Shown piece after piece: positions 20,645-34,564 of a stretch of 64,000 nt of DNA. The translations under genes were made by a program, and so were the position numbers. A model generated the notes under the pieces. It ran no database searches and was not told where the DNA came from. It saw only the letters and a list, made by a program, of their open reading frames with translations. The DNA comes from Cyclobacteriaceae bacterium (GTDB lineage: Bacteria; Bacteroidota; Bacteroidia; Cytophagales; Cyclobacteriaceae), in contig JABFRS010000001.1 in the NCBI GenBank assembly GCA_013141055.1, forward strand, positions 806,001 through 870,000, in the 5' to 3' direction. Every line of letters starts with the position of its first letter. Position 1 is the first letter of the stretch.

Positions 20645-23110
20645 CTATTCATCCCTCAACACCGTCACAGGATTGGTCAACGCCGCCTTCACCGAATGAT
20701 AGCTCGTAATCACAATCGCCACCATCAGCGTTCCCACTCCCGTCCAGGCAAAGATCCACAGCGAGATCGGAACCCGGTATGCAAAATCCTGCAACCACTG
20801 CGTCATCATCCAATATGATAGAGGCGCGCCAATGATAAATGCTATTACGATCAGATGCGTGTATCCGCGTGAGATCAATGTCAATATGTTCCACACCGAT
20901 GCTCCCGAAACTTTTCTGATACCGATCTCCTTCGTCTTCTGCTCCAGCGTATAGATGATCATGCCCAGCAATCCCAGCGCTGCAATCAATATCGCCAGCG
21001 TCGCCATCACCGTTAATGTCTTCGCAAATTGCTGTTGTGTTCTGAATGAATCCGCGAACTTCTGATCAATGAATGAATACTGGAATGGCAATCCATTCGC
21101 ATGGGTCTTCCAGAGTTTCTCTGCCGCTGCCATCGTACTCTCCCACTCCTCTGCACTTTGCGCTCCGATGCGGAGTGTTACATACTTTGTATTACCCGCA
21201 CCGAGCACCGGACTCTTTATATGAAAGATCGCCATCGGTTCTATCGGGCTCTCCAGCGACCAGTAGTGAAAGTCTTCCACCACTCCCGCGATCTCATACA
21301 CATCATTCTCACCCGGCTTGGTAATTCTCTTTCCGATAACGGATTCATCCACATTCCATCCGATCTCTCTCACCGCAGTTTCATTCAGGATCAATCTCTT
21401 CACATCTCCCGGAATGTCTGCCTGAAAGTTGCGGCCCACTTTCATCTTTATACCCAGCGTTGGAATATAGTTCTCGTCGCCGGTGGTGAAGTTCAAGGGA
21501 AGAGTCTTCTGATTGGTCCCTTCTGCTGTAAAGCTGTCACCACCAAAGATCGTTGGCGGCACCGACGTGCACCAGGAACTGCTGACAACACCGGGGATAT
21601 TGAGAGCCGCTTTCGCAAAGGCTTCACCATCGCCGACATTCTCAACATGCTCGATCACCATCAGATTCTCCTTGTTGAAACCAAGATCTGTTTCAGAAAC
21701 AAACTTCAGCTGCTGGAATACCACCGACGTACATAATATCAATACAATTGAAACGCTGAACTGAAAGATCACCAGTCCGTTGCGGAATGCTTTACCACCA
21801 CCGGTCTTCATCTTTCCTTTCATTGCTTCCACAGGATTGAAAGCGCTGAGGAATATCGCCGGGTAACTTCCCGAGATCAGCGCCATGAAGAGAATCAAAG
21901 AGATCAGTGCGATCATCAATACAGGATCGCTGAACAGATTCATCTGCAGGGATTTTCCCACGATGGCATTGAAGCCAGGAAGCAGCAGCTGCGCAATGCC
22001 CAGTGAAATAAATAATGCGATCCCACAGAATATCAACGCTTCCAGGAGATAGTTGAAGCTCAGCTGTGCACGACCGAGTCCCATGATCTTGCGGATGCTT
22101 GCCTCTTTGATTCGTCTCGTAAACTGTGCCGTAGACAAATTCATAAAGTTGACGCACGACAACAATACAATGAATGCTACCGCTCCCATCAGAGAGTACA
22201 GTATTTTGATGTTGCCTGAATCATTCAATCTATTGTAAACAATTTCTTCCGGAAGGTGAATGCTGGTCATGGGTTGCAGGAACAGCTCCCATTTCTTTCC
22301 CGACTTCACATACTCGTCGTACGACATATTCATAGCAGCACGAATGGACGTCTCGGCATGCTTGCGCGGAATGAGGGCAAGCTTTGCTTTGGTGTTTTCG
22401 ATGTTGGTTCCGGGAGCAACTTTAATATACGTTTCAAGCTGCGTCCATATCCAGCTCCAGTGACGTTTCTCGAGACCGAAACCTTCCATGGACAAAAGAA
22501 TATCAAATTCGATGTAAGAATTTTCGGGAGTATCTTTTACGACACCGGTGACTTCGTAGGTCTTCTGGTTGTCGGCTTTACCGAGACGCACCAGCTTGCC
22601 GATGGGGTTCTCATCATTGAAATATTTTTTAGCAGTAGACTCCGTCATCACGAGCGTGTTGGTCTGACGTAATGCTGAGTTGGCATCCCCTTGTATCAAA
22701 GGGAAGCTGAACATCTTGAAGAAGTTGGTATCGGCGGCAAGAACTCTTTCTTCCTCGAATGCTATCACCTCATTGGCAGCGTCGGTATAGGATACAACAA
22801 AGTTGCCGGGAGTGTGAATGCTGGTGAGCAGTTCCATTTCGGGAAGTTCTTCTTTGAGCGCCATGGCGACGCCGGGACCGGTGGAAGAGAACTGATGATT
22901 ATCACCATCGCCCCAGATGAACGTCTGGTTGACGCGATAGATACGATCGACATCTTTATGAAACCCGTCGTATGAAAATTCATGACGGATGTATAGATAG
23001 ATCAGCATAGTGCTGGCGATGCTGACGGTGAGTCCCAGGAGGTTGATGAAAGAGAAGAGACGTTGTCGTTCGAGGTTGCGGATGAAGAGGACGAGGTAGT
23101 TCTTGATCAT
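20645..23110 (-). CDS. FtsX-like ABC transporter permease (MacB periplasmic-core type)
   Basis: Inner membrane permease of 821 residues, the large Bacteroidota FtsX type: transmembrane helix 1 (RLFSFINLLGLTVSIASTMLIYLYI), MacB-like periplasmic domain, a three-helix FtsX core with INFMNLSTAQFTRRIKEASIRK-like wording, then a second copy ending in LGLLGMIIYTLEQKTKEIGIRKVSGAS. The start is set at the ATG of MIKNYLVLFIRNLERQ. The open frame extends 46 residues further to 23248, but that part is proline-rich, does not match the family and runs into repeat family B. These proteins work with a separate MacB-like ATPase; none is encoded nearby. A second such permease is at 48788. Confidence 0.9.
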   Translation of the reverse strand: MIKNYLVLFIRNLERQRLFSFINLLGLTVSIASTMLIYLYIRHEFSYDGFHKDVDRIYRVNQTFIWGDGDNHQFSSTGPGVAMALKEELPEMELLTSIHTPGNFVVSYTDAANEVIAFEEERVLAADTNFFKMFSFPLIQGDANSALRQTNTLVMTESTAKKYFNDENPIGKLVRLGKADNQKTYEVTGVVKDTPENSYIEFDILLSMEGFGLEKRHWSWIWTQLETYIKVAPGTNIENTKAKLALIPRKHAETSIRAAMNMSYDEYVKSGKKWELFLQPMTSIHLPEEIVYNRLNDSGNIKILYSLMGAVAFIVLLSCVNFMNLSTAQFTRRIKEASIRKIMGLGRAQLSFNYLLEALIFCGIALFISLGIAQLLLPGFNAIVGKSLQMNLFSDPVLMIALISLILFMALISGSYPAIFLSAFNPVEAMKGKMKTGGGKAFRNGLVIFQFSVSIVLILCTSVVFQQLKFVSETDLGFNKENLMVIEHVENVGDGEAFAKAALNIPGVVSSSWCTSVPPTIFGGDSFTAEGTNQKTLPLNFTTGDENYIPTLGIKMKVGRNFQADIPGDVKRLILNETAVREIGWNVDESVIGKRITKPGENDVYEIAGVVEDFHYWSLESPIEPMAIFHIKSPVLGAGNTKYVTLRIGAQSAEEWESTMAAAEKLWKTHANGLPFQYSFIDQKFADSFRTQQQFAKTLTVMATLAILIAALGLLGMIIYTLEQKTKEIGIRKVSGASVWNILTLISRGYTHLIVIAFIIGAPLSYWMMTQWLQDFAYRVPISLWIFAWTGVGTLMVAIVITSYHSVKAALTNPVTVLRDE

Positions 23111-23244
23111 GGGGGACGGGTTTTGGAGGGGAGGTTTGCAAAGTGCGTACCAGTAGAGAAAGGGAGAATTGGGGGTGGAAAGGGAGGTTTTGGAGGGGGT
23201 GGATGTTCGGAAGTGAGGTGGGGTGTGCGGAGGCGACCATGTAG

Positions 23245-23268
23245 CCATGTAACACTAAGGCTACATGG
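23245..23268 (+). repeat. Dispersed hairpin repeat, family B
   Basis: CCATGTAAC-ACTAAG-GCTACATGG, one stem mismatch. Family consensus: CCNTGTAGC, ACTAAG-type loop, GCTACANGG. Confidence 0.75.
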
Positions 23269-23317
23269 TGATACACCAATGCAGACCAAAATGCAGGAAC
23301 ACGGATTATTTGGATAG

Positions 23318-23337
23318 CCCACGGTTTTAACTGTGGG
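23318..23337. repeat. Palindromic repeat, family E
   Basis: CCCACGGTTTTAACTGTGGG, a near-perfect palindrome related to the one at 23437. Confidence 0.65.
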
Positions 23338-23394
23338 TTATAAATTGATGTCAACGCACGCAACCATTTCAATGGTTTCATTGTACAAATTATA

Positions 23395-23424
23395 AACCAT
23401 TAAAATGGTTGAGGTGAAATATCC
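23395..23424 (+). repeat. Dispersed repeat, family D (copy 2)
   Basis: AACCATTAAAATGGTT palindrome followed by GAGGTGAAATATCC, as at 19429. Confidence 0.65.
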
Positions 23425-23436
23425 AATCGCCATTGT

Positions 23437-23454
23437 CCACGGTTAAAACCGTGG
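23437..23454. repeat. Palindromic repeat, family E
   Basis: CCACGGTT-AA-AACCGTGG, perfect 8-bp arms. Half of the motif also appears near 19560. Confidence 0.65.
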
Positions 23455-23460
23455 GCTTGC

Positions 23461-23550
23461 ACCCATCAGCGTAGCTGATAATCCGTGTTAATCTGCATTC
23501 CTTTCTCAAGCAAGAGTGCATTATTACTTATCCGTGAATCCGTGTTCCTT
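23461..23550 (+). repeat. ~90-bp intergenic repeat, family C (copy 1, left of island)
   Basis: Shares CATCAGCGTAGCTGATA, AATCTGCATTC, TTTCTCAA and TATCCGTGAATCCGTG, in that order and spacing, with the copy at 31793. Confidence 0.75.
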
Positions 23551-23716
23551 TTTTCTCTCTTCCGATTTTCCAATTGGCTTTAAATCGTCCATTATTTTCC
23601 TCCCTTTTTTCCCCACCTCCTTCCTCTCCCCCATCCTCTCCTCTCCCAGCGCCGGGGGCACGGTTTTGTTGCCCGTTTTTTCATGGAATTAATATTTCAA
23701 CCAAAAACCAATAGTT

Positions 23717-24208
23717 ATGAAAAACGAAAATAGCAGCAGCTCCAAAGCGGTCAGTGCGATTCCAAAAGGATTTCATACCGTTACCCCATTTCTCGTGATC
23801 AACGATGCACCCAAGGTGATTGAATTTATAAAGAAGGCATTTGATGGTACGGAAGATTTCAAGCTGATGACGGACGACAACCAGGTCATGCATTGCTCGA
23901 TGCGCATTGGTGATTCCAACATCATGATCGCCGATGCGATGGACTCAATGCCGGAACAACGGGCGATGCTCTTCTTATATGTTGATGATGTTGATAGAGT
24001 GTACAAGAAAGCCATTGCCGCGAAGGGTGAATCCGTGCGCGACGTCCGCAACGAATTCTATGGCGACCGTGCCGGAGCAGTGAAAGATCCGAGCGGTCTC
24101 ACGTGGTGGATAGCGACTCACGTTGAAGATGTGAGCGATGAAGAACTAAGGAAGAGAAGTAAAGAAGCCGAGGACCAGATGAAGAAGGCTGAGCCGATGG
24201 AGCATTAG
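23717..24208 (+). CDS. VOC family protein (glyoxalase/PhnB-like)
   Basis: 163-residue protein of the vicinal oxygen chelate superfamily. The start of the domain, FHTVTPFLVINDAPKVIEFIKKAFD, and the second half, LFLYVDDVDRVYKKAIAAKG with DRAGAVKDPSGLTWWIATH, match the PhnB/YdcE-like subgroup with a complete beta-alpha-beta-beta-beta pair. The C-terminus is a charged helix (SDEELRKRSKEAEDQMKK). Enzymatic activity is uncertain; many PhnB-like proteins have no known substrate. Confidence 0.88.
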   Translation: MKNENSSSSKAVSAIPKGFHTVTPFLVINDAPKVIEFIKKAFDGTEDFKLMTDDNQVMHCSMRIGDSNIMIADAMDSMPEQRAMLFLYVDDVDRVYKKAIAAKGESVRDVRNEFYGDRAGAVKDPSGLTWWIATHVEDVSDEELRKRSKEAEDQMKKAEPMEH

Positions 24209-24632
24209 TATAAATTAGAATTATGCAAGAGTGACGTAAGACAACTTATAAAATAGAACCGCAAGGACACGAGGTGGACTTTGCGGTTTTTGTTTAGGTT
24301 AATGTTGGAATATTAGATCACTTATGAACATAAATGAACGTTGCTCTGAGGGTCAAGAGGTTACAAAGGTTCGTTGTAACGTGGGTAATACAAGTATAGA
24401 GATTTTTTGTATAAACAAATAAAAGGCGCTTTCGAAATTATCACGGTAAAAGTGAACTAACAACGAAATACAGATCACTAACTACTTATTTCCAAAAGTA
24501 TTTAAGGCTGTACAATAATGTTCAGATAGCTTCATCAATCCATTCTAAATAGACGAACAACGCCATACTTCAAATGTTTAAATAATGTTGGTGTCAGTTA
24601 AAAAAAATGAGAGACCTTCTGAATTGCCCCAT
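24209..24632. other. Gene-free AT-rich stretch at island edge
   Basis: Apart from the terminator at its left end I see no gene, repeat or RNA. Base composition turns visibly AT-rich from about 24300, marking the left border of the island. Confidence 0.6.
24257..24292 (+). terminator. Terminator after VOC gene
   Basis: AACCGCAA and TTGCGGTT pair across a 16-nt loop, followed by TTTTGTTT. Confidence 0.7.
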
Positions 24633-24920
24633 TCACACCAAACTTTTTTCTTTAAGAATTGCAACGTACTGAGGTTGTGATAGGGTACATTTCGCGAATG
24701 CAACAAATTCCTTTTTATTAAGATTTATTTGCCGTGACATTTCACGGATCAAATAATCATTTATCTCTTGGTTGTTATGACTAAACTTAGTACGGCACCG
24801 CGTAAGTTTTCCATCGTGCCAAAACTCAATCCACTTATGATCTTTACTCTTATTAGGCGCTTCCTTAAATCCTTTGCCGCAGAGATTTTTGAGTGTTTCT
24901 TTACCATCAAGAGGAGACAT
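24633..24920 (-). CDS. HicA-like small protein (putative toxin)
   Basis: 95-residue protein. The first 35 residues read like a HicA double-stranded-RNA-binding fold: LDGKETLKNLCGKGFKEAPN, then KDHKWIEFWHDGKLTR with His28 where HicA has its catalytic His. Unlike classical HicA it continues with TKFSHNNQEINDYLIREM and a C-terminal helical tail (LNKKEFVAFAKCTLSQPQY). HicA toxins cleave mRNA. The gene lies 9 bp downstream of a larger gene with a HicB-like C-terminus, on the same strand, so the pair looks like a toxin-antitoxin operon in reversed order. The assignment is by eye and tentative. Confidence 0.5.
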   Translation of the reverse strand: MSPLDGKETLKNLCGKGFKEAPNKSKDHKWIEFWHDGKLTRCRTKFSHNNQEINDYLIREMSRQINLNKKEFVAFAKCTLSQPQYVAILKEKSLV

Positions 24921-24929
24921 ACAGGATTG

Positions 24930-25886
24930 TTAAATTACAATTAGCTTAAGTGCCTTTTTTATTTCTATCACATCTGCACTCAGTTTGCTGTCAGGCAAGT
25001 TTATATACCGGCTATAGATATGATCAAACTCTTCCGAAAATTTGAATCTTGCTTCATCCACATTTTTACCAAAGGCGTAAATCCCAAATTGCTTGTTTTC
25101 CAGAGAATATAATCCCTCCTCATGAATCAATTCACAGTAGAGTGGATACTTAAATTTATATTTTCTGCTTTCAAAGGAAATAGTCGTGAACGAGTATACC
25201 GGATTGGTAATCTCTTCAAACAATTCTAAAACTTTGGGGGTAGCTCTTCCCCCCTTAATCTCTACCATTGCCAATGAAGTCCTTATTTCCTGCTTAATTT
25301 CAGCAGACGAAACTGGATCAGGAATTAAAATTGCGTAATTAATTCCCTCTGGCTTTGAAATTTTATGATCAATTTTTTTAAAGCTTGATCCTAATTTGAC
25401 GTTAGCCTTGTCGTTGTTAGCGATACCTTCAACGATTGGCTTAAATATTCTTTGACGCTGAATTGGATCAAATCTCTTTGACATTGATGTCAGAAATTGT
25501 CTATCATTAAAGTCAGTAGACACAATGGCCTTGTAATCATCGAATGCTTCTAACTTCCAGGATTTTAGATCTTTAATTTGAGGGATGGAATTGTACTGTG
25601 TGACAATGTTAGGACTGATTGCCATCCCACAGCTCTCAAACTTTAAATCAACAATCAGCAAAGCATTGTCTTCAAGGAGACTCGACTTAATGGTTTTTAA
25701 CTTCGCCTTATCGTTTTGCCTATTGATTTTATCATACTCAATATCAATAAAGGCGTTGTAAGACTCATTGAAAGATTTTAAAACCCTTATTAAATCTTGG
25801 GCATCCACAGCACCGCCAAACTTTACTTTTGACGTTAGCTTGAAATAAATAGCAGTTTCTCTAAGCGGTTGAAGGAATTCTTCCAT
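24930..25886 (-). CDS. Hypothetical protein with HicB-like C-terminus (putative antitoxin)
   Basis: 318-residue protein not recognised over most of its length. Residues 1-195 form an alpha/beta domain starting FLQPLRETAIYFKLTSKVKFGGAV. The C-terminal region holds YPLYCELIHEEGLYSLENKQFGIYAFGKNVDEARFKFSEEF (split here only for description: a strand pair, then GIYAFGKNVDEA followed by a helix), which resembles the partial RNase H fold of HicB antitoxins. No DNA-binding domain is obvious. It precedes the HicA-like gene by 9 bp. If the pair is real, this is an antitoxin with a large N-terminal extension. Codon use and AT content match the island, not the flanks. Confidence 0.45.
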   Translation of the reverse strand: MEEFLQPLRETAIYFKLTSKVKFGGAVDAQDLIRVLKSFNESYNAFIDIEYDKINRQNDKAKLKTIKSSLLEDNALLIVDLKFESCGMAISPNIVTQYNSIPQIKDLKSWKLEAFDDYKAIVSTDFNDRQFLTSMSKRFDPIQRQRIFKPIVEGIANNDKANVKLGSSFKKIDHKISKPEGINYAILIPDPVSSAEIKQEIRTSLAMVEIKGGRATPKVLELFEEITNPVYSFTTISFESRKYKFKYPLYCELIHEEGLYSLENKQFGIYAFGKNVDEARFKFSEEFDHIYSRYINLPDSKLSADVIEIKKALKLIVI

Positions 25887-26060
25887 GGAGTAGCATAAAA
25901 ATAGTCAAATATTACACATTCCGGTACCACGGTTGACGGGCAGTGGGAAGTCACAAATGGACAAATTAACAGATACGGTTACTCGCTACAGCGTTAAAAA
26001 ACTCACTGGAAATTCGACACAACACCGTGTACAATTCTGATCTACTCTTTCTATTAAATT

Positions 26061-29000
26061 CTAAAGGACATAAATAATACTTTGAGCAAACTTTGCCCAA
26101 GGCTCGACATCTAATTTAGTTCTTTGAGTTGGATAGGGAACTCGATATTGACGTTCTCCCAATACATTCCAAATCATTGTTAAATCATGGGCTTTCAAGT
26201 AACGATCTAGTAAATCTTTTCTTATAAAATGCACTTTCTCATTATTTATGTAGGTTTCTTCACCCGAGAATTGAAAAATAGAGGCCACTTTTTTCGAAGG
26301 TCTTTCCAAAAGATTCGCACTTTGTGGCTGATTAATCAAATCCAATTCTTCGGAAATTTCTTTAGCAATTGCCATGGAATCATTTATGTGAACCTGGGGA
26401 GAAAATATTTCTAGGTTAATTTCTTCCTTAATATCCCTTTCCAAAACCTCCGGAATTTTCCGCTGTGTTAAGCCAGCCTTTTGCATTTCAAATTTTACAG
26501 GGTCTACATCATTTTTTCCTGAAGTAAAAAATATGTAACCACTCTCGTGCAAGATCACCGAGTTACTATACTTTTCCTTTATCATCTTCCAAAATTTTGA
26601 TTCAGAGTATGTGGACAATTTAACCTCGGCACGAAATAGTTTACTGACCATTTGCGTCACATTTCCTTTATAGGTTCTCAATTCAATGGGGTGCGCTTCA
26701 AAATTATTTGATTCAAAAATTGGAGATCTAGGGACTTCCCCATGGAATACTGTTCTGTTTGTTGGCGTTATATCAGTAATGAATTTAATGGAATTAAGGT
26801 GGCTCTTTACAAAAGGAAGGTCTTTATTATGAATGAAAAACGTCTGCACGTGAGTGTAAATTTCTTTGTTGCTAGGTTTGTCATACTGGTCATGGCTCCC
26901 ATAAATTAAAATCCAAGGTCCCTGATTTCCTTTCAAGCTCTCCACTTTAAAAAATTTTTGGATTCCTGGTAATGCGTGATGACCTAACCAAGTTTTCATA
27001 TCCAGTGACTTATCTTCCAGAAAATCATCCGTTATTATCGGAATATCTGGTTTAAAATCTGGATAAGTAGGATCTATTCGAGATTCATACCGAAGCTCAC
27101 TCAAAGTCTTTGGACTAAGAAAAAAACCTCGCAACTCATAAAACGCAATAAGAGTATATTTCTCTCCATATTTCAGCACAGATTTACTTGAGTTGTTACT
27201 ATATCCACGAAATTGTGCAATTTCAGTATCGATACTTTCAAATGACTTAAAGTCGTATCCTAATTGATACGCTCTCCAGCGAATATTAGAGAGCGCTTTC
27301 TTGTACTTTATAGTTGGCCGATATTCATCACCAAATCCAAACTCCCGCATTTTGTTCTTTTCAGAAAAATAATCGATTAAAGAATTCCCTTCGCGGTACT
27401 CGTGTTTATTTCTGTCTTTTGACTCACCCCATTTCTTAATTCCAACTTCTTTAATAGGAAGCTTAATTCGTGCCTTCTCTTCATCACTCAGCATCGTAGG
27501 GTTTGCAGAAATTCCCAGAGATAGAATATTTAATGCAAAATCATTAATCAAAATGTTTGTAGTAGAATACTTGGCAAGTTCGGAGTAAAGATTGGTATAA
27601 ATAAACCTACAAAGGTCTTCAAATAGCCCATTTGAAAACTCATCGTGCATTACATTAACTTTTGCAAGAATGACACCATACATCACACTACCCAAACGCT
27701 CAAAAATCATCGGATCATTTATCGAAATCGATGATTTGAATAATTCAACAAGCTCATACGGAAACCTTCTACCGTACCAATAAAGACTTTTCGCAGCGCC
27801 GCTGTTAATAGACTCTTTTGTACTTGTAAAACACCACATTAAAAATTTCGCAATAGTTTGGCATTTTAATTTTGACAATTCATCAAGTTCGATTGAACTA
27901 AGACAGGTAATCTCAAAAGACTTAAAAAGAGCTTCATAAAATCCAAGATCCCTGTGACGGAGAGATTCAGACCACAGTAAATCACGCTCACGCATTGAAC
28001 ATTCCCTCAGGAGTTCCGACCACAATTCCATATTTAACGGATGGCCAGGCACAAGTAAGGTCTCCTGACTATGCCTCAACAATAAACCCCTCTGTTTTCT
28101 CTTTTTGAAAATAGATTTGATTAGATCTCTTTGATTAGCGTCAATGACAGATGGTGACAACGACAGCATCGTAATCACAGATGAATTGAATAATTTATTA
28201 TATTCTTTTTCCTTCGGAACAATATCATGGAAGAATACTCCCTTTTTCTTCGGAAGAAGTGCCGACAGACACTCAAGAATGTCCTCATGATAGGGGTCTC
28301 CTTGATTCGCTGGTCCCTTTAAAACTTTTTGATGAAATTCCTTACTTGTAATTAGTGTATTTATATCATCCGAATAGTGATAAATCAAATAACTTGCAAT
28401 GACATAACCTGCCATCAAGTCGTAAGTAAATCCGACATATTCATGATCGTCAGCCCAGTCTCTCAACAGCAATAACTCCTCATCTAATAAAGCCTTTGAT
28501 TTCGATTTCCAAAAATCTTCATCAATTTTTGCATCCACAATCAATTTAAAATTTTCAAATGTGATTCCACGAATGTCACTCTCCCAAAAAGCTTTGCCAA
28601 TCCCTAGGATCGATTTAGAAGCAACTTTTTTGATGGTATTAATTGGCCCATACTGTTCCTTTAATTTTTCAAAAATTCTTACATCACAGGTAGAAATATA
28701 AGCCTCGAAAATATCGTATATGGAATCCAATCCAAGTGTTACATGCACAACATCCTGTTTACGATGATTCTTAGTTTCGCAAAATATTTTTAACAGTAAC
28801 GGTTTCCTGAATTGTTGCAAAGACAGATAGGTAATTTCACTGACAATTTTATACTTCGAAAAGTATTTGCCAACCATTTCTTGAATGTCAGCTTGATCAT
28901 TAAATCCATACACTTCATGAAAGCCTTCTTCATTTATCTGCCAGTTTCGTTCCCAAATTGCTTTCCTATAGCTTGTCCTACTTGTAGTGAACAGCACTAG

Positions 29001-30428
29001 GTTGGGATAAGCTGTAATCTGTGCCTCAATTCCATCTAGATCGTCCTTCCACCTCCGATTAAATTTACCGTCGACACCAAGAGACTCATTAAGACCATCA
29101 AAGATTAGGGGAATTCTGCAATTATGAATGACTGCCTTAATTTGCAACTCATCCAAAAATTCTTTGAAGGAATAGTTACTACGAATATCAAGTAAATCCA
29201 GAATTTGGCGTTCGATTGAACTCGAGTCGTTAAATTTGCTGGCTGGGATAAAAATTGCCGGTTGTCCCTTATCAAGCTGTTCCTTAGCTAAGGCAATTGA
29301 CAAATGAGTTTTACCAAGACCTGCTCCACCAAGTATATGAAGACGTTTTGACTCTCCTATTTTACTATGCTCAAAGAAATATTTTATTTCCTCAACAATT
29401 TTTGCTCCATGATAGGAAGGAGAATTAACAAGTCTAATAACCCGGTCTAAACGGTTATCGTCTTGATGTTGTAATTCATATCCCTTCTGAAATTGAATTT
29501 TTTGGGAAAATCCAATTTTGTTTAATTGAGAAATTAAGTCTTCTAATAGAGCACTGTATTGCTGATATTTTACAACTGTTACATATTGAAGGCCATTTGG
29601 ATTAACTTTTAGAAGAAATAGGTCTAGAATTCCTTTTGCCTCTTTACTGGCAGCAACAAGTTCCCTTCCTTTTTTTACAAAAATATCTTTGACCGCCATC
29701 CACGCGATTCCGTCATCATTAATATTTTCAAGTTGTAGTAAATTATCCTCAAGTTTTTCAAGATTTTCATTTAAATTTCTCAGATAACTCTTTAGTCTTC
29801 CATTAAAAATATTGTTCACCAACAATGGAGCGGTGTAATAAAATTCTAACTCGGAATCGACAGTATGGAGGTCTTGATCAAATTTAAGAGCTATTGGATG
29901 GAAGAATTTCTCAAATGATGTATTGAACCAATGGTGATCTAATTCAAGAGAATTGAAAAAGTGACTTTTTATACCTTCAAAACCGGGTTTGTTAAGAAAA
30001 GAAAAAATTTCAGTTTGACCCCAATGAATCAGTTTAACAGTCCTATTGCCGGGAATTTTTCCTTTTAAAACGTTTTCAAACCAATTTCTTTCAGTTGGAG
30101 TTAAGTCAGCAATTGTACACAATATCCAAGTGGTCATGTTCGGGTGAACCGAAAGAGCCTTTTTCAGAGAGTCAATTATCTTACTCTTCCTAGACGGGGT
30201 TAATCGACCATTATCATCATAAAACTTTACTTGCCATCCAGTTTCCTTTTTATCAGGTTTTATTAGGAAAAACTCCACACCATCACCACCGCCGGAATCA
30301 TCAATTGGCCAAAGGTTAGCTGATTCTTCAGATCTTGAAACAATTTGATAAACTAATTGCTCAAAACTCTTACTCTTAGATGACCTATAGGGTTCTAGTC
30401 TCGCCCAATCAATCATTTCCCTTGCCAT
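26061..30428 (-). CDS. Avs-like protein: PD-(D/E)xK nuclease fused to STAND/NACHT-type NTPase
   Basis: 1455-residue multidomain protein. Residues 1-~165 form a restriction-endonuclease-like domain with FEQLVYQI (Glu23), Asp49 in SGGGDGVEFF and Q66-V67-K68 in GWQVKFY, the order and spacing of Mrr/Cap4-type nucleases. A coiled-coil-rich linker follows. The P-loop is GGAGLGKT (367-374) and Walker B is PLIFDGLNES (440-449), then TTSRTS, as in NACHT/STAND ATPases. The C-terminal ~800 residues look helical at first and later mixed; no TPR is obvious and I do not recognise the domain. Nuclease-STAND fusions of this size (Avs family) bind a phage protein with the C-terminus, oligomerise and degrade DNA. 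That role is inferred here. A 65-residue gene ends 11 bp upstream. Confidence 0.75.
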   Translation of the reverse strand: MAREMIDWARLEPYRSSKSKSFEQLVYQIVSRSEESANLWPIDDSGGGDGVEFFLIKPDKKETGWQVKFYDDNGRLTPSRKSKIIDSLKKALSVHPNMTTWILCTIADLTPTERNWFENVLKGKIPGNRTVKLIHWGQTEIFSFLNKPGFEGIKSHFFNSLELDHHWFNTSFEKFFHPIALKFDQDLHTVDSELEFYYTAPLLVNNIFNGRLKSYLRNLNENLEKLEDNLLQLENINDDGIAWMAVKDIFVKKGRELVAASKEAKGILDLFLLKVNPNGLQYVTVVKYQQYSALLEDLISQLNKIGFSQKIQFQKGYELQHQDDNRLDRVIRLVNSPSYHGAKIVEEIKYFFEHSKIGESKRLHILGGAGLGKTHLSIALAKEQLDKGQPAIFIPASKFNDSSSIERQILDLLDIRSNYSFKEFLDELQIKAVIHNCRIPLIFDGLNESLGVDGKFNRRWKDDLDGIEAQITAYPNLVLFTTSRTSYRKAIWERNWQINEEGFHEVYGFNDQADIQEMVGKYFSKYKIVSEITYLSLQQFRKPLLLKIFCETKNHRKQDVVHVTLGLDSIYDIFEAYISTCDVRIFEKLKEQYGPINTIKKVASKSILGIGKAFWESDIRGITFENFKLIVDAKIDEDFWKSKSKALLDEELLLLRDWADDHEYVGFTYDLMAGYVIASYLIYHYSDDINTLITSKEFHQKVLKGPANQGDPYHEDILECLSALLPKKKGVFFHDIVPKEKEYNKLFNSSVITMLSLSPSVIDANQRDLIKSIFKKRKQRGLLLRHSQETLLVPGHPLNMELWSELLRECSMRERDLLWSESLRHRDLGFYEALFKSFEITCLSSIELDELSKLKCQTIAKFLMWCFTSTKESINSGAAKSLYWYGRRFPYELVELFKSSISINDPMIFERLGSVMYGVILAKVNVMHDEFSNGLFEDLCRFIYTNLYSELAKYSTTNILINDFALNILSLGISANPTMLSDEEKARIKLPIKEVGIKKWGESKDRNKHEYREGNSLIDYFSEKNKMREFGFGDEYRPTIKYKKALSNIRWRAYQLGYDFKSFESIDTEIAQFRGYSNNSSKSVLKYGEKYTLIAFYELRGFFLSPKTLSELRYESRIDPTYPDFKPDIPIITDDFLEDKSLDMKTWLGHHALPGIQKFFKVESLKGNQGPWILIYGSHDQYDKPSNKEIYTHVQTFFIHNKDLPFVKSHLNSIKFITDITPTNRTVFHGEVPRSPIFESNNFEAHPIELRTYKGNVTQMVSKLFRAEVKLSTYSESKFWKMIKEKYSNSVILHESGYIFFTSGKNDVDPVKFEMQKAGLTQRKIPEVLERDIKEEINLEIFSPQVHINDSMAIAKEISEELDLINQPQSANLLERPSKKVASIFQFSGEETYINNEKVHFIRKDLLDRYLKAHDLTMIWNVLGERQYRVPYPTQRTKLDVEPWAKFAQSIIYVL

Positions 30429-30439
30429 ATTATGGACAA

Positions 30440-30637
30440 TTACTTAATTGAATTTAATTCTGCAATTTCCTCTTTGAATAATTTACCGATGACAGGATCA
30501 TCAATTAAAGCTGTGATTTCATCAGCTTCCCTATTATAAGTTACTACACTGCCAGATTGAATGTCATATCTATCCCTAAGTTCCAAAACCACAGAATGAA
30601 ATTCGTCTTTCTTAAACGCTCTGAATGTAAATTCCAT
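30440..30637 (-). CDS. Small hypothetical protein, partner of the Avs-like gene
   Basis: 65 residues from the ATG at 30637 (MEFTFRAFKKDEFHSVVLEL), which has AAGGTG at a suitable distance. In-frame codons allow an N-terminal extension up to 30739, but that part lacks a ribosome site and reads poorly. The protein is charged and predicted alpha/beta (DRYDIQSGSVVTYNREADEITALIDD), with no membrane segment or known domain. It ends 11 bp before the nuclease-NTPase gene on the same strand, so the two should be co-transcribed. A regulatory, inhibitory or accessory role for the large protein is inferred from position alone. Confidence 0.6.
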   Translation of the reverse strand: MEFTFRAFKKDEFHSVVLELRDRYDIQSGSVVTYNREADEITALIDDPVIGKLFKEEIAELNSIK

Positions 30638-30644
30638 ATATAAA

Positions 30645-30650
30645 CACCTT
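30645..30650 (-). promoter_or_regulatory. Shine-Dalgarno-like site deciding the start
   Basis: AAGGTG on the minus strand, 7 bp before the ATG at 30637; supports the 65-residue form of the small protein. Confidence 0.5.
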
Positions 30651-30863
30651 AAATGAATAGCTTTACCTTGAATGGTTAACATTTCAACAAACCGATTTGT
30701 AGCAAATGTTGGCGTCCACCAGCTCTTACAAATTAACAAATATTTTAAAGCTAGATTACTTTGTAACTTATGATCTAAGTAGTCTGCAGACTGTTAGTCG
30801 AACAATGTACTGAAATTCCTCAATTTTCTTTGCTTTCTCAATTCAAAAGAATAGCACTAAAGT

Positions 30864-30871
30864 TATATTTG
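30864..30871 (+). promoter_or_regulatory. Bacteroidota -7 promoter element
   Basis: TATATTTG, exact TAnnTTTG, 29 bp before the membrane protein start, in the divergent intergenic region of the island. Confidence 0.5.
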
Positions 30872-30900
30872 TTGCTCCTCCTACACCCAAGAAAGCTTCT

Positions 30901-31680
30901 ATGGAACATGACGCTAAAAAGTACGTGGACTTTATTCACCATGCTTTACACCTAGACGACGAATCCAGAAAGAAATCAATTTGGATTGTTATTCGAGTAT
31001 TAAACATTCTAATGAATATCCAACTAGCAATATTTATTGCAGAGTATTTTGGATACAATATTATTGCGACAACTTTAAATTTTGATCTAGTACTATCTGT
31101 ATTAAAGAACTATGACCTAATAATTGGTATTATCTTTTTCTCCATCACCTATTTTGGTATAAAGATTTCAATGTGGATATTAACCAATGGCTTGGCTTAT
31201 AGTGGACGTTGGCTTTCAGTCAAACAAACTGAAGCTGATAAGCAAAAGTTAAATGATCGTATGGTAATTGACGAAGTGGCCTTAAAAGTAGAATCAGAGA
31301 ACGCTCTCGGAAGAATGACCTTTTACACGGATTTCATAAGAAAGCATAATTCTGTAAACGAATTCTTAATAAAGATATCGTTAACCTATGGAATCATAGT
31401 TTACACTAAGTTCAATTCATTGTATTATAAGCCCTTCCTCGACCTTCTTTTATTCAGCATTATGCTATTAATGCTTTCTCTGGCTGCCATAAGAAGTCAA
31501 TACCTAAAAGATCAGATGTTTGAGCCTTTTTACTTAAAAAGAACTCCCTTTAAGGTAAAGAAACTCTCCAAGTTTCGACGTAGGACACTTAAAGTAATAG
31601 GCATTTTGGCGATGTTGGTGGGGACATTTGCTCTTCTTTTGATTGGAATTTTTGGTTCTTCCCTAGTTACCCAACTGTAA
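30901..31680 (+). CDS. Hypothetical multi-pass membrane protein
   Basis: 259-residue protein with about four hydrophobic segments: residues 27-48 (IWIVIRVLNILMNIQLAIFI), ~73-95 (LIIGIIFFSITYFGIKISM), ~178-199 (PFLDLLLFSIMLLMLSLAAI) and the C-terminal ~232-255 (LKVIGILAMLVGTFALLLIGI). A charged loop of about 70 residues separates the second and third. No family recognised. It is transcribed divergently from the nuclease-NTPase operon and shares the island's AT-rich composition. It may be a membrane component of the same system or an unrelated passenger. Confidence 0.65.
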   Translation: MEHDAKKYVDFIHHALHLDDESRKKSIWIVIRVLNILMNIQLAIFIAEYFGYNIIATTLNFDLVLSVLKNYDLIIGIIFFSITYFGIKISMWILTNGLAYSGRWLSVKQTEADKQKLNDRMVIDEVALKVESENALGRMTFYTDFIRKHNSVNEFLIKISLTYGIIVYTKFNSLYYKPFLDLLLFSIMLLMLSLAAIRSQYLKDQMFEPFYLKRTPFKVKKLSKFRRRTLKVIGILAMLVGTFALLLIGIFGSSLVTQL

Positions 31681-31757
31681 ACAACTGTTCTTCTTCACCT
31701 CCATAAAAATCTCTTCCTTGATCGTGGACTATAGTTTCATAACAGCGTCACTTACCA

Positions 31758-31787
31758 TTTGTCTCAGGTCGGTCTTATCACCGACCT
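31758..31787 (-). repeat. Dispersed hairpin repeat, family A (inverted)
   Basis: TTTGTCTCAGGTCGGT, a 6-nt loop CTTATC, then ACCGACCTGGG. Confidence 0.75.
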
Positions 31788-31792
31788 GGGTG

Positions 31793-31880
31793 CACTCATC
31801 AGCGTAGCTGATAAATCCGTGTCAATCTGCATTCATTTCTCAAACAAAGCTGTATTCCTATCCGTGAATCCGTGACCCTG
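31793..31880 (+). repeat. ~90-bp intergenic repeat, family C (copy 2, right of island)
   Basis: Same order of blocks as the copy at 23461 (CATCAGCGTAGCTGATA, AATCTGCATTC, TTTCTCAA, TATCCGTGAATCCGTG) and the same orientation. The two copies bracket the AT-rich island as imperfect direct repeats. Confidence 0.75.
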
Positions 31881-31907
31881 TATTCGTTTAAGTTTTTTTG
31901 TTCATGA

Positions 31908-31935
31908 GGTCGGTGAAAACACCGCCCTAAGACAA
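31908..31935 (+). repeat. Dispersed hairpin repeat, family A
   Basis: GGTCGGTG-AAAA-CACCGCCC followed by TAAGACAA; one stem mismatch. Confidence 0.75.
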
Positions 31936-32016
31936 ATCAATCCCCATTTCCCAAAATGGTATACATTTTGATAAATTCGTTGTATTAATTCCAATTCAGT
32001 ATCAACTCAAAATTAT

Positions 32017-32739
32017 ATGATCTACAAAAAGCTATTCCTCTTTTGTTTTGCGGTTGCCATTTCAGCGATGACGCTTAAAGCACAGGTCGAAGATCCAGGA
32101 CCCGGCACCGTGGTGGTCTATTCAGAGAACGGAGACAAATTTACACTGTATCTCAACGGTGGACAGATGAATGCAAGTCCCATGTCGAGGGTGGTGGTTG
32201 AGAATTTTAAGGAAGTACCAGTGTCTTTCCGTATGGTGTTTGAAGACGGGTCACCGGAACTAACAAAGAAAGGTCTTCGTCAGGGGAAATATTGTCTTTA
32301 CTCCATTGTAAAAGACAAGAAGGGCAACGCTCTTAAAATGAAAGGCTGTTCAATGGATCCTCCGGCGGATCCTGCAGGCACATCAACACAATCACCTGTG
32401 ACTACTTCAGCAGCTTCGACACCAGATCAGCTATCAGCGAAGTTCGTTGACGGGATGATCGTTATCAACGATGGCCGTACGATCGCAGTGAAGAAGGTTC
32501 AGGCAAACGGAATGACCTATCCACGCGTGATCATGACGGCGCTTCCTGGCGCAAAAGTTTCTATTACGTATGATGATAATTCAGAGAGCTATAGTGCAGA
32601 ATCTCCTCTTAAGTATGAGGTAAAAGATTTTCAGCTCAACAATGCATACTTCACACTTACTGTTGACGAAGGTGGGCCTGCCAGAACATGGCATGTGAAG
32701 TTGCAGAATGCTAATGGATATGATTTGAAAATTGATTAA
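32017..32739 (+). CDS. Secreted hypothetical protein
   Basis: 240-residue exported protein. The signal peptide ends LKAQ at about residue 23. The N-terminal half starts with a beta-rich segment (GTVVVYSENGDKFTLYLNGGQMN) of the type found before DUF4476 in Bacteroidota proteins. A Pro/Thr/Ser linker (PADPAGTSTQSPVTTSAAST, ~118-137) leads to a second beta-rich domain (PRVIMTALPGAKVSITYDDNSESY). Function unknown. The gene stands alone between two repeat clusters. Confidence 0.7.
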   Translation: MIYKKLFLFCFAVAISAMTLKAQVEDPGPGTVVVYSENGDKFTLYLNGGQMNASPMSRVVVENFKEVPVSFRMVFEDGSPELTKKGLRQGKYCLYSIVKDKKGNALKMKGCSMDPPADPAGTSTQSPVTTSAASTPDQLSAKFVDGMIVINDGRTIAVKKVQANGMTYPRVIMTALPGAKVSITYDDNSESYSAESPLKYEVKDFQLNNAYFTLTVDEGGPARTWHVKLQNANGYDLKID

Positions 32740-32741
32740 CC

Positions 32742-32765
32742 CCCTGTAGGACTAAGGCTACAGGG
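32742..32765 (+). repeat. Dispersed hairpin repeat, family B
   Basis: CCCTGTAG-GACTAAGG-CTACAGGG, directly after the stop codon of the secreted protein gene. Confidence 0.8.
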
Positions 32766-32775
32766 TTACGCCCAT

Positions 32776-32793
32776 GGTAGCACTTCGGCTACA
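32776..32793 (+). repeat. Dispersed hairpin repeat, family B (weak copy)
   Basis: GTAGC-ACTTCG-GCTAC, only the inner stem is conserved. Confidence 0.6.
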
Positions 32794-32799
32794 AGGTCA

Positions 32800-32823
32800 C
32801 CATATAGCACTAAGGCTATATGG
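32800..32823 (+). repeat. Dispersed hairpin repeat, family B
   Basis: CCATATAGC-ACTAAG-GCTATATGG, perfect 9-bp stem. Confidence 0.8.
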
Positions 32824-32824
32824 C

Positions 32825-32885
32825 ATCACGGATTCACGGATAAGGAATAAAAAAGCTTTTGCTTTAGAAAGGAATGCGGATTGTC
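32825..32885 (-). repeat. Intergenic repeat, family C (copy 3, inverted, partial)
   Basis: CACGGATTCACGGATA, then TTTAGAAAGGAATGCGGATT: the reverse complement of the right part of the copies at 23461 and 31793. Confidence 0.65.
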
Positions 32886-32921
32886 TGCCGGATGGATCCT
32901 TTTGATCAGTGAAATCCGTGG

Positions 32922-32945
32922 CCCTGTAGCACTACGGCTACAGGG
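32922..32945 (+). repeat. Dispersed hairpin repeat, family B
   Basis: CCCTGTAGC-ACTACG-GCTACAGGG, perfect 9-bp stem. Confidence 0.8.
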
Positions 32946-32978
32946 CTGCGCTCCTGTTCCCGTCTAAGTTTTTTCTTA

Positions 32979-33002
32979 CCATGCAGCCTTAGCGCTACAT
33001 GG
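32979..33002 (-). repeat. Dispersed hairpin repeat, family B (inverted)
   Basis: CCATGCAGC-CTTAGC-GCTACATGG with one mismatched pair; the loop orientation shows that it is inverted. Confidence 0.65.
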
Positions 33003-33014
33003 ATTCGTCAAGAA

Positions 33015-33043
33015 GGTCGGTGAAAAACACCGACGTAAGGCAA
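33015..33043 (+). repeat. Dispersed hairpin repeat, family A
   Basis: GGTCGGTG-AAAAA-CACCGACG followed by TAAGGCAA. Confidence 0.75.
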
Positions 33044-33199
33044 TTGAATCTCCATCCCACTCCCATTTTGTCTTATGTTCATTTTCGTACATCTTTGTAC
33101 GCCAAAGATCAGTTTTCGGCATGGAAACCGCATTTCCGGACACTGGGTGCACTGGCACAATTTTCTCTCTATACGTTTCCCTAAACCTAATACTGAACC

Positions 33200-34564
33200 G
33201 TGAACGAAGGCAAAATACTGATGATCGATGACGATGAGGATGTTCTCCTCGCCGCCAAAATGCTGCTTAAGAAATACAACTACCAGATCATCATCGAGAA
33301 GAATCCCAACAAGATCCCTTTCTTATTAAACAACGATACGTACGATGTCATCCTGCTTGACATGAACTTCAGCAAGGATACTACCAGCGGTAAAGAAGGT
33401 TTCGAATGGCTCGGAAAAATAAAAGAGAAAGATCCTCAGGCCGTCGTCATCATGATCACTGCCTTCGGTGATGTGGAGATGGCCGTGCGTGCCCTGAAAG
33501 ATGGCGCCACCGATTTCATCTTAAAGCCATGGCAGAATGAAAAACTCATCGCCACGATCTCTACCGCCATCAAGTTAAAGAAATCATACAACGAGGTTGA
33601 CAAGCTCCGCAAAGCCAAGCAGATGCTGGAAGAGCAGATCAGTCAGCCGTTCCGTGACATCATTGGAAACAGCGATGCCATGCAGGAGGTGTACACGCTC
33701 ATCGACCGTGTTGCCAAGACCGACGCCAACGTTCTCATCCTCGGAGAGAACGGTACCGGAAAAGAACTCATCGCACGCGCCATTCACCAGAAGTCATTGA
33801 GAAGTGACAACTCTTTTGTCGCGGTCGACATGGGTGCCATCACTGAAACTCTTTTTGAAAGTGAACTCTTCGGTCATAAGAAAGGTGCCTTCACCGATGC
33901 CCGTGAAGATCGTCCCGGAAGATTTGAGCTTGCCAACGATGGTACATTGTTCCTGGATGAGATCGGAAACCTTAGCCTGAATCTCCAGAGTAAATTATTG
34001 AGTGCTTTGCAGTCGCGGAAAGTAACACGTGTCGGATCCAACAATTCGGTAGACGTGGATATCCGGTTGATCTGTGCCACCAACATGCCGATTGAGCAGA
34101 TGGTGAAAGAGGGGAAATTCAGACAGGATCTTTTATACAGAATTAATACTGTTGAAGTGCACATCCCTCCTCTCGCGGATCGTGTCGATGATATTGTTAT
34201 GCTGGCCAATCACTTCCTGGATCACTATTCAAAGAAATACAGAAAGGAAGTATTGACGATTGCGTCGGATGCAGTGACCAAGCTTAAGAAATATGCCTGG
34301 CCGGGAAATGTTCGCGAGCTTCAGCATTCTATTGAGCGCGCTGTGATCATGGCGGACTCTGCGACGCTACAAGAGACTGACTTTCTTTTCAGTCGCAAGT
34401 CGGACTCTTCTGCCAATGCAGACACCCTCAAGCTGGATGAAGTGGAAAAGGCAGCGGTGGTAAAAGCATTGCAGCTTCACAATGGAAATATTTCGAAGGC
34501 TGCCGATGAGTTGGGGTTAACCCGCGCGTCGCTTTACCGTAGAATGGAGAAGTACGGACTTTGA
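33200..34564 (+). CDS. NtrC-family sigma-54-dependent response regulator
   Basis: 454-residue transcription activator. Receiver domain: acidic pair D10/D11, phosphoacceptor Asp54 (ILLDMNFS), Thr in MITAFGD and Lys in FILKPW. AAA+ domain: Walker A GENGTGKE (182-189), the sigma-54 contact loop GAFTDA (229-234), Walker B LFLDEIG (250-256) and R-finger segment FRQDLLYRIN. C-terminal Fis-type helix-turn-helix (GNISKAADELGLTRASLYRR). The start is GTG. The cognate kinase gene follows after 25 bp. Activation of sigma-54 promoters is family knowledge; the signal is unknown. Confidence 0.96.
   Translation: MNEGKILMIDDDEDVLLAAKMLLKKYNYQIIIEKNPNKIPFLLNNDTYDVILLDMNFSKDTTSGKEGFEWLGKIKEKDPQAVVIMITAFGDVEMAVRALKDGATDFILKPWQNEKLIATISTAIKLKKSYNEVDKLRKAKQMLEEQISQPFRDIIGNSDAMQEVYTLIDRVAKTDANVLILGENGTGKELIARAIHQKSLRSDNSFVAVDMGAITETLFESELFGHKKGAFTDAREDRPGRFELANDGTLFLDEIGNLSLNLQSKLLSALQSRKVTRVGSNNSVDVDIRLICATNMPIEQMVKEGKFRQDLLYRINTVEVHIPPLADRVDDIVMLANHFLDHYSKKYRKEVLTIASDAVTKLKKYAWPGNVRELQHSIERAVIMADSATLQETDFLFSRKSDSSANADTLKLDEVEKAAVVKALQLHNGNISKAADELGLTRASLYRRMEKYGL

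Follow-up and report, generated by a model that had tools for sequence, protein, structure and literature searches.

An Avs2-like nuclease-STAND protein encoded in an AT-rich stretch of a Cyclobacteriaceae genome

In passages of two papers (PMC12724215, PMC12931631), Avs1, Avs2 and Avs3 are described as sensing the large terminase subunit and Avs4 as sensing the portal. The same passages report that a Klebsiella Avs2 also binds Ksap1 besides terminase, and that ATP-dependent assembly switches on the N-terminal effector of Avs proteins (PMC12724215, PMC12931631). Here, we analyzed a 64-kb window of a Cyclobacteriaceae genome (the window being the whole stretch of DNA under study, 64,000 nucleotides (nt), numbered from its first letter). 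Between 24.2 and 31.7 kb, this window carries an AT-rich stretch that encodes a protein of 1455 residues with a predicted nuclease, a STAND nucleoside triphosphatase (NTPase) and a predicted sensor. It falls into a separate clade next to Avs2, and not within Avs2. The protein is intact and very probably belongs to a known kind of defence protein, and we consider it likely that this one gene encodes an antiphage sensor with the mode of action of Avs2, sensing a phage packaging protein and then cutting DNA. Its parts are as follows.

26061-30428, minus strand: Avs2-like nuclease-STAND-sensor protein, 1455 amino acids (aa), intact (open reading frame (ORF) list, PADLOC, NCBIfam, tree, profiles)
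29859-30428, minus strand: residues 1-190, predicted Avs4-type PD-(D/E)xK nuclease domain (profile, fold, conserved residues)
28749-29438, minus strand: STAND/NACHT NTPase, residues 331-560 (Pfam, motifs)
29307-29330, minus strand: P-loop
29082-29111, minus strand: Walker B
26064-28742, minus strand: C-terminal half, residues 563-1455, predicted sensor (AlphaFold model, fold matches, Avs2 alignment)

Relation of the 1455-residue protein to Avs2

A first-pass annotation, made by a model from the sequence alone, had likened the protein to Avs systems, and profile searches supported this assignment. PADLOC Avs2 models matched residues 5-974 of the window protein with E values down to 3.3e-112; over the clade, five of the six models matched 27 of 27 rows and the sixth matched 26. 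On the NCBIfam model for Avs2 (AVAST type 2, NF041813), the best E value among the 27 clade rows was 9.1e-122, and the best clade score would be roughly 400 bits. Using hhalign, the clade and Avs2 profiles aligned with a probability of 100 over 1294 columns (6-1431 against 3-1383), indicating homology over nearly the full length. In the PDB, the clade profile matched the solved Avs2 9o4e_A (E 1.3e-99), the match falling into two segments, 187-1023 and 1037-1243. Clade and Avs2 have in common the domain order, the NTPase motifs and a short motif near the C-terminus (clade form, RKDLL...L.W..WGER; Avs2 form, RK...L.W.VLGEK) that is visible in most rows of both. They differ in sequence, with a mean between-group identity of 16-26% in five segments outside the linker.

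In a tree of 40 rows, obtained with a quick method and a midpoint root, with four long branches flagged and Avs2 as the only Avs type included, 31 rows including the window protein were split from the nine Avs2 rows (Shimodaira-Hasegawa-like approximate likelihood ratio test (SH-aLRT) support of 100). The window protein does not group inside Avs2. Avs2 rows L054, L055, L058 and L059 were scanned against PADLOC, and L054, L058, L059 and L060 against NCBIfam; L052, L053, L056 and L057 were called Avs2 from the tree only.

The closest relatives of the window protein are from Sphingobacteriaceae, with approximately 33% identity over nearly the full length. Among 295 genomes from the family, 11 contained an Avs2-like match; for the phylum, the figure was 12 of 395. 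The genome under study is counted in each. Scanning a collection of species genomes with a four-row alignment revealed 42 loci, from Bacteroidota, Poribacteria, a cyanobacterium, a member of the Bacillota and others. The tree includes 28 of these loci; two near-copies (L089, L094) and twelve broken or incomplete loci (L075, L082, L084, L086, L087, L092, L096, L100, L101, L102, L106, L109) were left out. It covers four of the ten other matching genomes from the family set and nine of the eleven from the phylum set, with G444 and G610 entering through L091 and L085, taken as the same contigs. Viral contigs gave 118 pattern matches, and no relative is encoded by any of them; one phage record had a partial match. 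The Avs protein was matched by 76 plasmid records, all below 60% identity, and no plasmid record matched the 65-aa or 95-aa proteins of the same stretch. A description of the clade was not found in the literature searched, the founding AVAST papers lying outside its reach.

Predicted nuclease, NTPase and sensor domains

The nuclease fold proposed for the N-terminus in the first pass was borne out by prediction. A profile built from 34 N-terminal domains matched Avs4 (8dgf) over residues 5-174 (E 6.7e-7). The AlphaFold model of the domain, with a predicted local distance difference test (pLDDT) score of 86.8, also had Avs4 as its best PDB match, both in Foldseek (E 1.1e-6) and in VIA (Z 13.8, 174 residues, root-mean-square deviation (rmsd) 5.6), and restriction endonucleases were among the next fold matches. 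The nuclease of Avs4 is thus the nearest solved one by profile and fold, whereas no PADLOC or NCBIfam Avs4 model matched the window protein at E values up to 1. PADLOC LmuA was also matched by 5 of the 27 clade rows at E values up to 1e-5. Glu23, Asp49, Gln66 and Lys68 had been noted in the first pass as the residues of a PD-(D/E)xK-type domain. Glu23, Gln66 and Lys68 are invariant in the 29 clade rows used for residue counts (which leave out L050 and L099), whereas Asp49 is kept in 25 and Glu52 is invariant instead; Glu52 is therefore a better candidate catalytic acid than Asp49. The pattern of the clade, E...GVE...QxK, is one that we take to be Mrr-like. The nuclease residues are also kept in seven of the nine Avs2 rows. 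Two Avs2 proteins from bacteria of the same family (L055:6291-10427 and L056:5339-9496) have a hydrophobic-looking N-terminus without nuclease residues, as if the effector had been exchanged.

A P-loop and a Walker B are present, as first noted. Their conservation was counted at six positions over the 29 rows: positions 372, 373, 444, 447 and 448 are invariant, G372, K373 and D444 among them, and position 374 is T in 28 rows and S in one. The NACHT match in Pfam was weak (E 0.0003; score of 21.1 bits, below the cut-off of 26.7). Judging from sequence and models, the protein combines what characterizes AVAST/nuclease-STAND proteins: a predicted N-terminal nuclease domain with conserved candidate catalytic residues, a putative STAND NTPase with P-loop and Walker B, and a modelled repeat-type C-terminal sensor. 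The gene is present as a single copy in its genome and has no internal stop. We regard it as very unlikely that it encodes a degenerate or host-function NTPase and no defence protein. PADLOC models matched none of the remaining ORFs in the stretch, which would suit such a function, but the candidate catalytic residues are kept, the frame is uninterrupted, the distribution among family and phylum genomes is sporadic, and the kinship to Avs2 extends over nearly the full length.

Residues 563-1455 were modelled from 33 rows (pLDDT 84.7, predicted template modelling score 0.81) as a helical solenoid to approximately residue 1112, followed by a beta-rich C-terminal domain (approximately 1161-1455). 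In the first pass, the sensor had been considered to be of a type without a match. This did not hold, as it aligns with the Avs2 profile and its best fold match is terminase-bound Avs3. The only two Foldseek matches with E <=0.001 were both to this structure (8dgc; 1.1e-5 and 1.8e-5), and VIA-align superposed residues 285-893 of the model on the Avs3-terminase complex with Z 15.5 (429 residues, rmsd 7.7), the next row having Z 9.8. Although Avs3 is the best structural match of the C-terminal half, it has no sequence match to the window protein at E values up to 1, the TM-score is low, and Avs3 chains have 2004-2028 residues. The lower fold matches were uninformative because NLR proteins were mixed with clathrin adaptors, exportins and other solenoids. 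The solved Avs2 9o4e was not among the sensor fold matches listed, though it is in the PDB sequence set; the fold library may omit it. Given the alignment of the clade and Avs2 profiles, the 9o4e match and the C-terminal motif, we therefore regard the predicted sensor as an Avs2-type sensor seen from a distance.

The same machine could also respond to another trigger, with the clade sensing the portal, a Ksap1-like protein or another phage protein, and not the large terminase. We consider this possible but doubtful. The clade is separate from Avs2 in the tree, and the identity between the window protein and the clade, 43.5% in the nuclease, is down to 22.8% for residues 1113-1455. One Avs2 is also reported, in a passage of PMC12724215, to bind Ksap1 besides terminase. 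On the other hand, the best sensor fold match is the terminase-bound Avs3, and C-terminal identity inside Avs2 (31.5%) is close to that inside the clade (32.9%), so that divergence alone is no sign of a new target.

Several observations weigh against the view that the protein is a sensor working like Avs2. Its score on the NCBIfam Avs2 model is 254.3 bits vs a cut-off of 1000, which places it outside Avs2 by that cut-off, and two other clade rows also fall below it (191 and 338 bits). Three of the four Avs2 rows pass (1429, 1658 and 1344 bits), and the fourth, on a long branch, is below the cut-off with 738. Because the curated cut-off and the tree both place the protein outside, we named it Avs2-like and not Avs2. 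The alignment of the clade with Avs2 was read residue by residue to approximately 755, its sensor part resting on the summary range, and the 9o4e match omits the nuclease domain (it starts at 187) and the end of the sensor (-0.2 bits for 1312-1419). The Foldseek matches of the sensor to Avs3 are not strong (TM-score 0.25, rmsd approximately 30), values that a flexible solenoid may give. Residues 1240-1455 are approximately 20% identical to the nearest relatives, and the trigger may therefore differ.

Lastly, no partner gene recurs near the relatives, and defence genes are scattered. Among 146 neighbour proteins scanned, no PADLOC family (E 1e-10) was shared by more than two, nor any Pfam family (E 1e-5) by more than three, in a scan that had no control loci and thus gives no measure of enrichment. 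These proteins came from 169 ORFs of at least 90 aa, the longest non-overlapping ones within 5 kb of 27 relatives; of the other 23, 22 are from L068, L085 and L103, taken as near-copies or the same context, and one is an Avs-gene fragment in L099. At L052:14133-18644, a CRISPR-like array of approximately 47-50 repeats, with a period near 72 nt and in two blocks, was observed 3.6 kb from the Avs2 gene.

If the protein works like Avs2, as we consider likely, its nuclease would be inactive at rest. The C-terminal solenoid and beta-rich domain would bind a packaging protein that is conserved among phages; the large terminase subunit is the most likely target because Avs1-3 sense it and the sensor loosely matches terminase-bound Avs3. 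Binding of the target, with ATP, would drive assembly through the STAND domain. The Avs4-type nuclease domains, clustered in this way, could next cleave the DNA of both phage and host and so end the infection, in which the cell would probably die. Binding, assembly and DNA cutting would all be expected by homology, and the domains and residues they call for appear to be present.

The AT-rich stretch and its other genes

The AT-rich island described in the first pass was confirmed, along with the genes described in it. In sliding windows, the AT-richest part of the 64 kb is a stretch of 7.4 kb, and the lowest sliding window starts at 24201 with a guanine-plus-cytosine (GC) content of 0.352. The 419 sliding windows outside, which overlap one another and are not independent, have a mean of 0.445 (standard deviation 0.010, minimum 0.418). 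GC is 0.354 in 24250-31750 vs 0.444 on either side. The stretch may be a defence island, as inferred in the first pass. It contains five ORFs of note, four of them on the minus strand, where they are read in the order 65-aa ORF, 1455-aa ORF, 318-aa ORF and 95-aa ORF. Those other than the Avs gene are listed below.

30440-30637, minus strand: 65-aa ORF, 11 nt upstream of the Avs gene
24930-25886, minus strand: 318-aa ORF, its C-terminal approximately 80 aa very weakly HicB-like
24633-24920, minus strand: 95-aa ORF, weakly HicA-like
30901-31680, plus strand: divergent 259-aa ORF with hydrophobic stretches

No tRNA was predicted in the window with ARAGORN, and integrases were looked for by eye in the ORF list. 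No Rfam match reached the gathering score in 22500-33500, and promoter-like sites were at chance level (30 found, 29.3 expected). A dispersed intergenic repeat flanks the AT-rich stretch, with two copies in the same orientation (23458-23555 and 31791-31885) located 8.33 kb apart. When 31690-32760 was used as a query, ten other places of the genome matched, eight of them outside the window. A 25-nt repeat forms a five-copy cluster at 32742-33003, right of the island, with one further copy on the other side, at 23245. Of 57 other genomes of the genus, one had a DNA match (66% identical) to 32017-32739, the gene that adjoins the island on the right. The ORFs left of the match in that genome resembled none of those that precede the island in the window, and an empty site was therefore not found.

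In the ORF list, the small upstream gene starts at a TTG and has 99 aa; we took it from an internal ATG, as 65 aa, because the only relative found aligns from there. It has no Pfam match. Searches of 345 phylum genomes and of 290 family genomes each found it in a single genome, its own, which has two copies. The second copy is 54% identical and lies 7 nt upstream of another ORF, counted from the first possible start of that ORF. It belongs to an island on the second contig of the genome (L113:3520-9034) that also encodes an integrase, RadC and a TIR-like protein, the last of these scoring below the Pfam cut-off. A blastp search of the ORFs of the 42 Avs-related loci gave no relative of the 65-aa ORF. 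The 259-aa ORF had no relative beyond its own genome among 345 genomes, and we found no evidence that it is part of the Avs system.

The first pass had also proposed an operon and a HicBA-like toxin-antitoxin pair. The genes are there, and the resemblance to HicBA proved very weak. The 95-aa ORF scored 13.2 bits on the HicA Pfam model vs a cut-off of 27, and three of its relatives scored 22.7, 13.5 and 12.2 bits; HicA is thus below the cut-off in four of five members and absent in the fifth. HicB had no match in the five partners scanned (the window 318-aa ORF and four relatives), two of the four relatives showing a sub-threshold PHD_like match instead, and no HicA hit was obtained in the PDB. 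With hhalign, small profiles aligned in register with Escherichia coli HicA and HicB (E 0.029 and 0.041, probability 1.7% and 1.3%); one unrelated control for each gave E 0.29 and 0.24, with probability 0.2% and 0.3%. HicA and HicB side by side above curated cut-offs were therefore not found, and the order differs from HicAB in that the antitoxin-like gene comes first. Four loci (L062, L063, L066, L067) have relatives of the 95-aa ORF, each adjoining a relative of the 318-aa ORF; an Avs match was seen in none of these loci. The 318-aa ORF has relatives in seven loci, three of which (L061, L064 and L065) do not match the 95-aa ORF, and this argues against a strict pair. The N-terminal parts of these relatives are poorly alike, and two of them are only 116 aa long.

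Could the genes of 24633-31680 together make up a composite defence unit, with the Avs gene regulated by the small upstream gene and guarded by the HicBA-like pair? The four same-strand ORFs, the short gap (11 nt) from the 65-aa ORF to the Avs gene and the common AT-rich stretch would fit this arrangement, as would the 65-aa paralogue positioned 7 nt upstream of another ORF in the second island with integrase and TIR-like protein. However, blastp (E 0.1) found no relative of the 65-aa ORF, the pair or the 259-aa ORF in the 42 loci, a search that covered ORFs of at least 35 aa and in which some loci are short contigs. The loci in which relatives of the pair were found show no Avs match, and 174 nt separate the pair from the Avs gene. 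We consider a composite unit improbable; the downstream pair is probably a separate passenger, next to an Avs2-like gene that likely acts alone.

Significance of the Avs2-like clade

These results extend Avs2-like sensors to a divergent clade across Bacteroidota, Poribacteria, Cyanobacteriota and Bacillota. As the clade lies far below the curated NCBI cut-off for Avs2, annotation may leave its members unnamed. What is surprising is limited to the divergence of the clade and the orphan 65-aa gene. A bolder proposal, in which the clade would be a separate AVAST type with its own trigger, controlled here by a genome-specific 65-residue protein found upstream of effectors in at least two islands, seems to us a long shot. 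If its trigger differs from terminase, the clade would help show how one sensor scaffold changes its target; otherwise, it adds one more member to a system whose principle is known.

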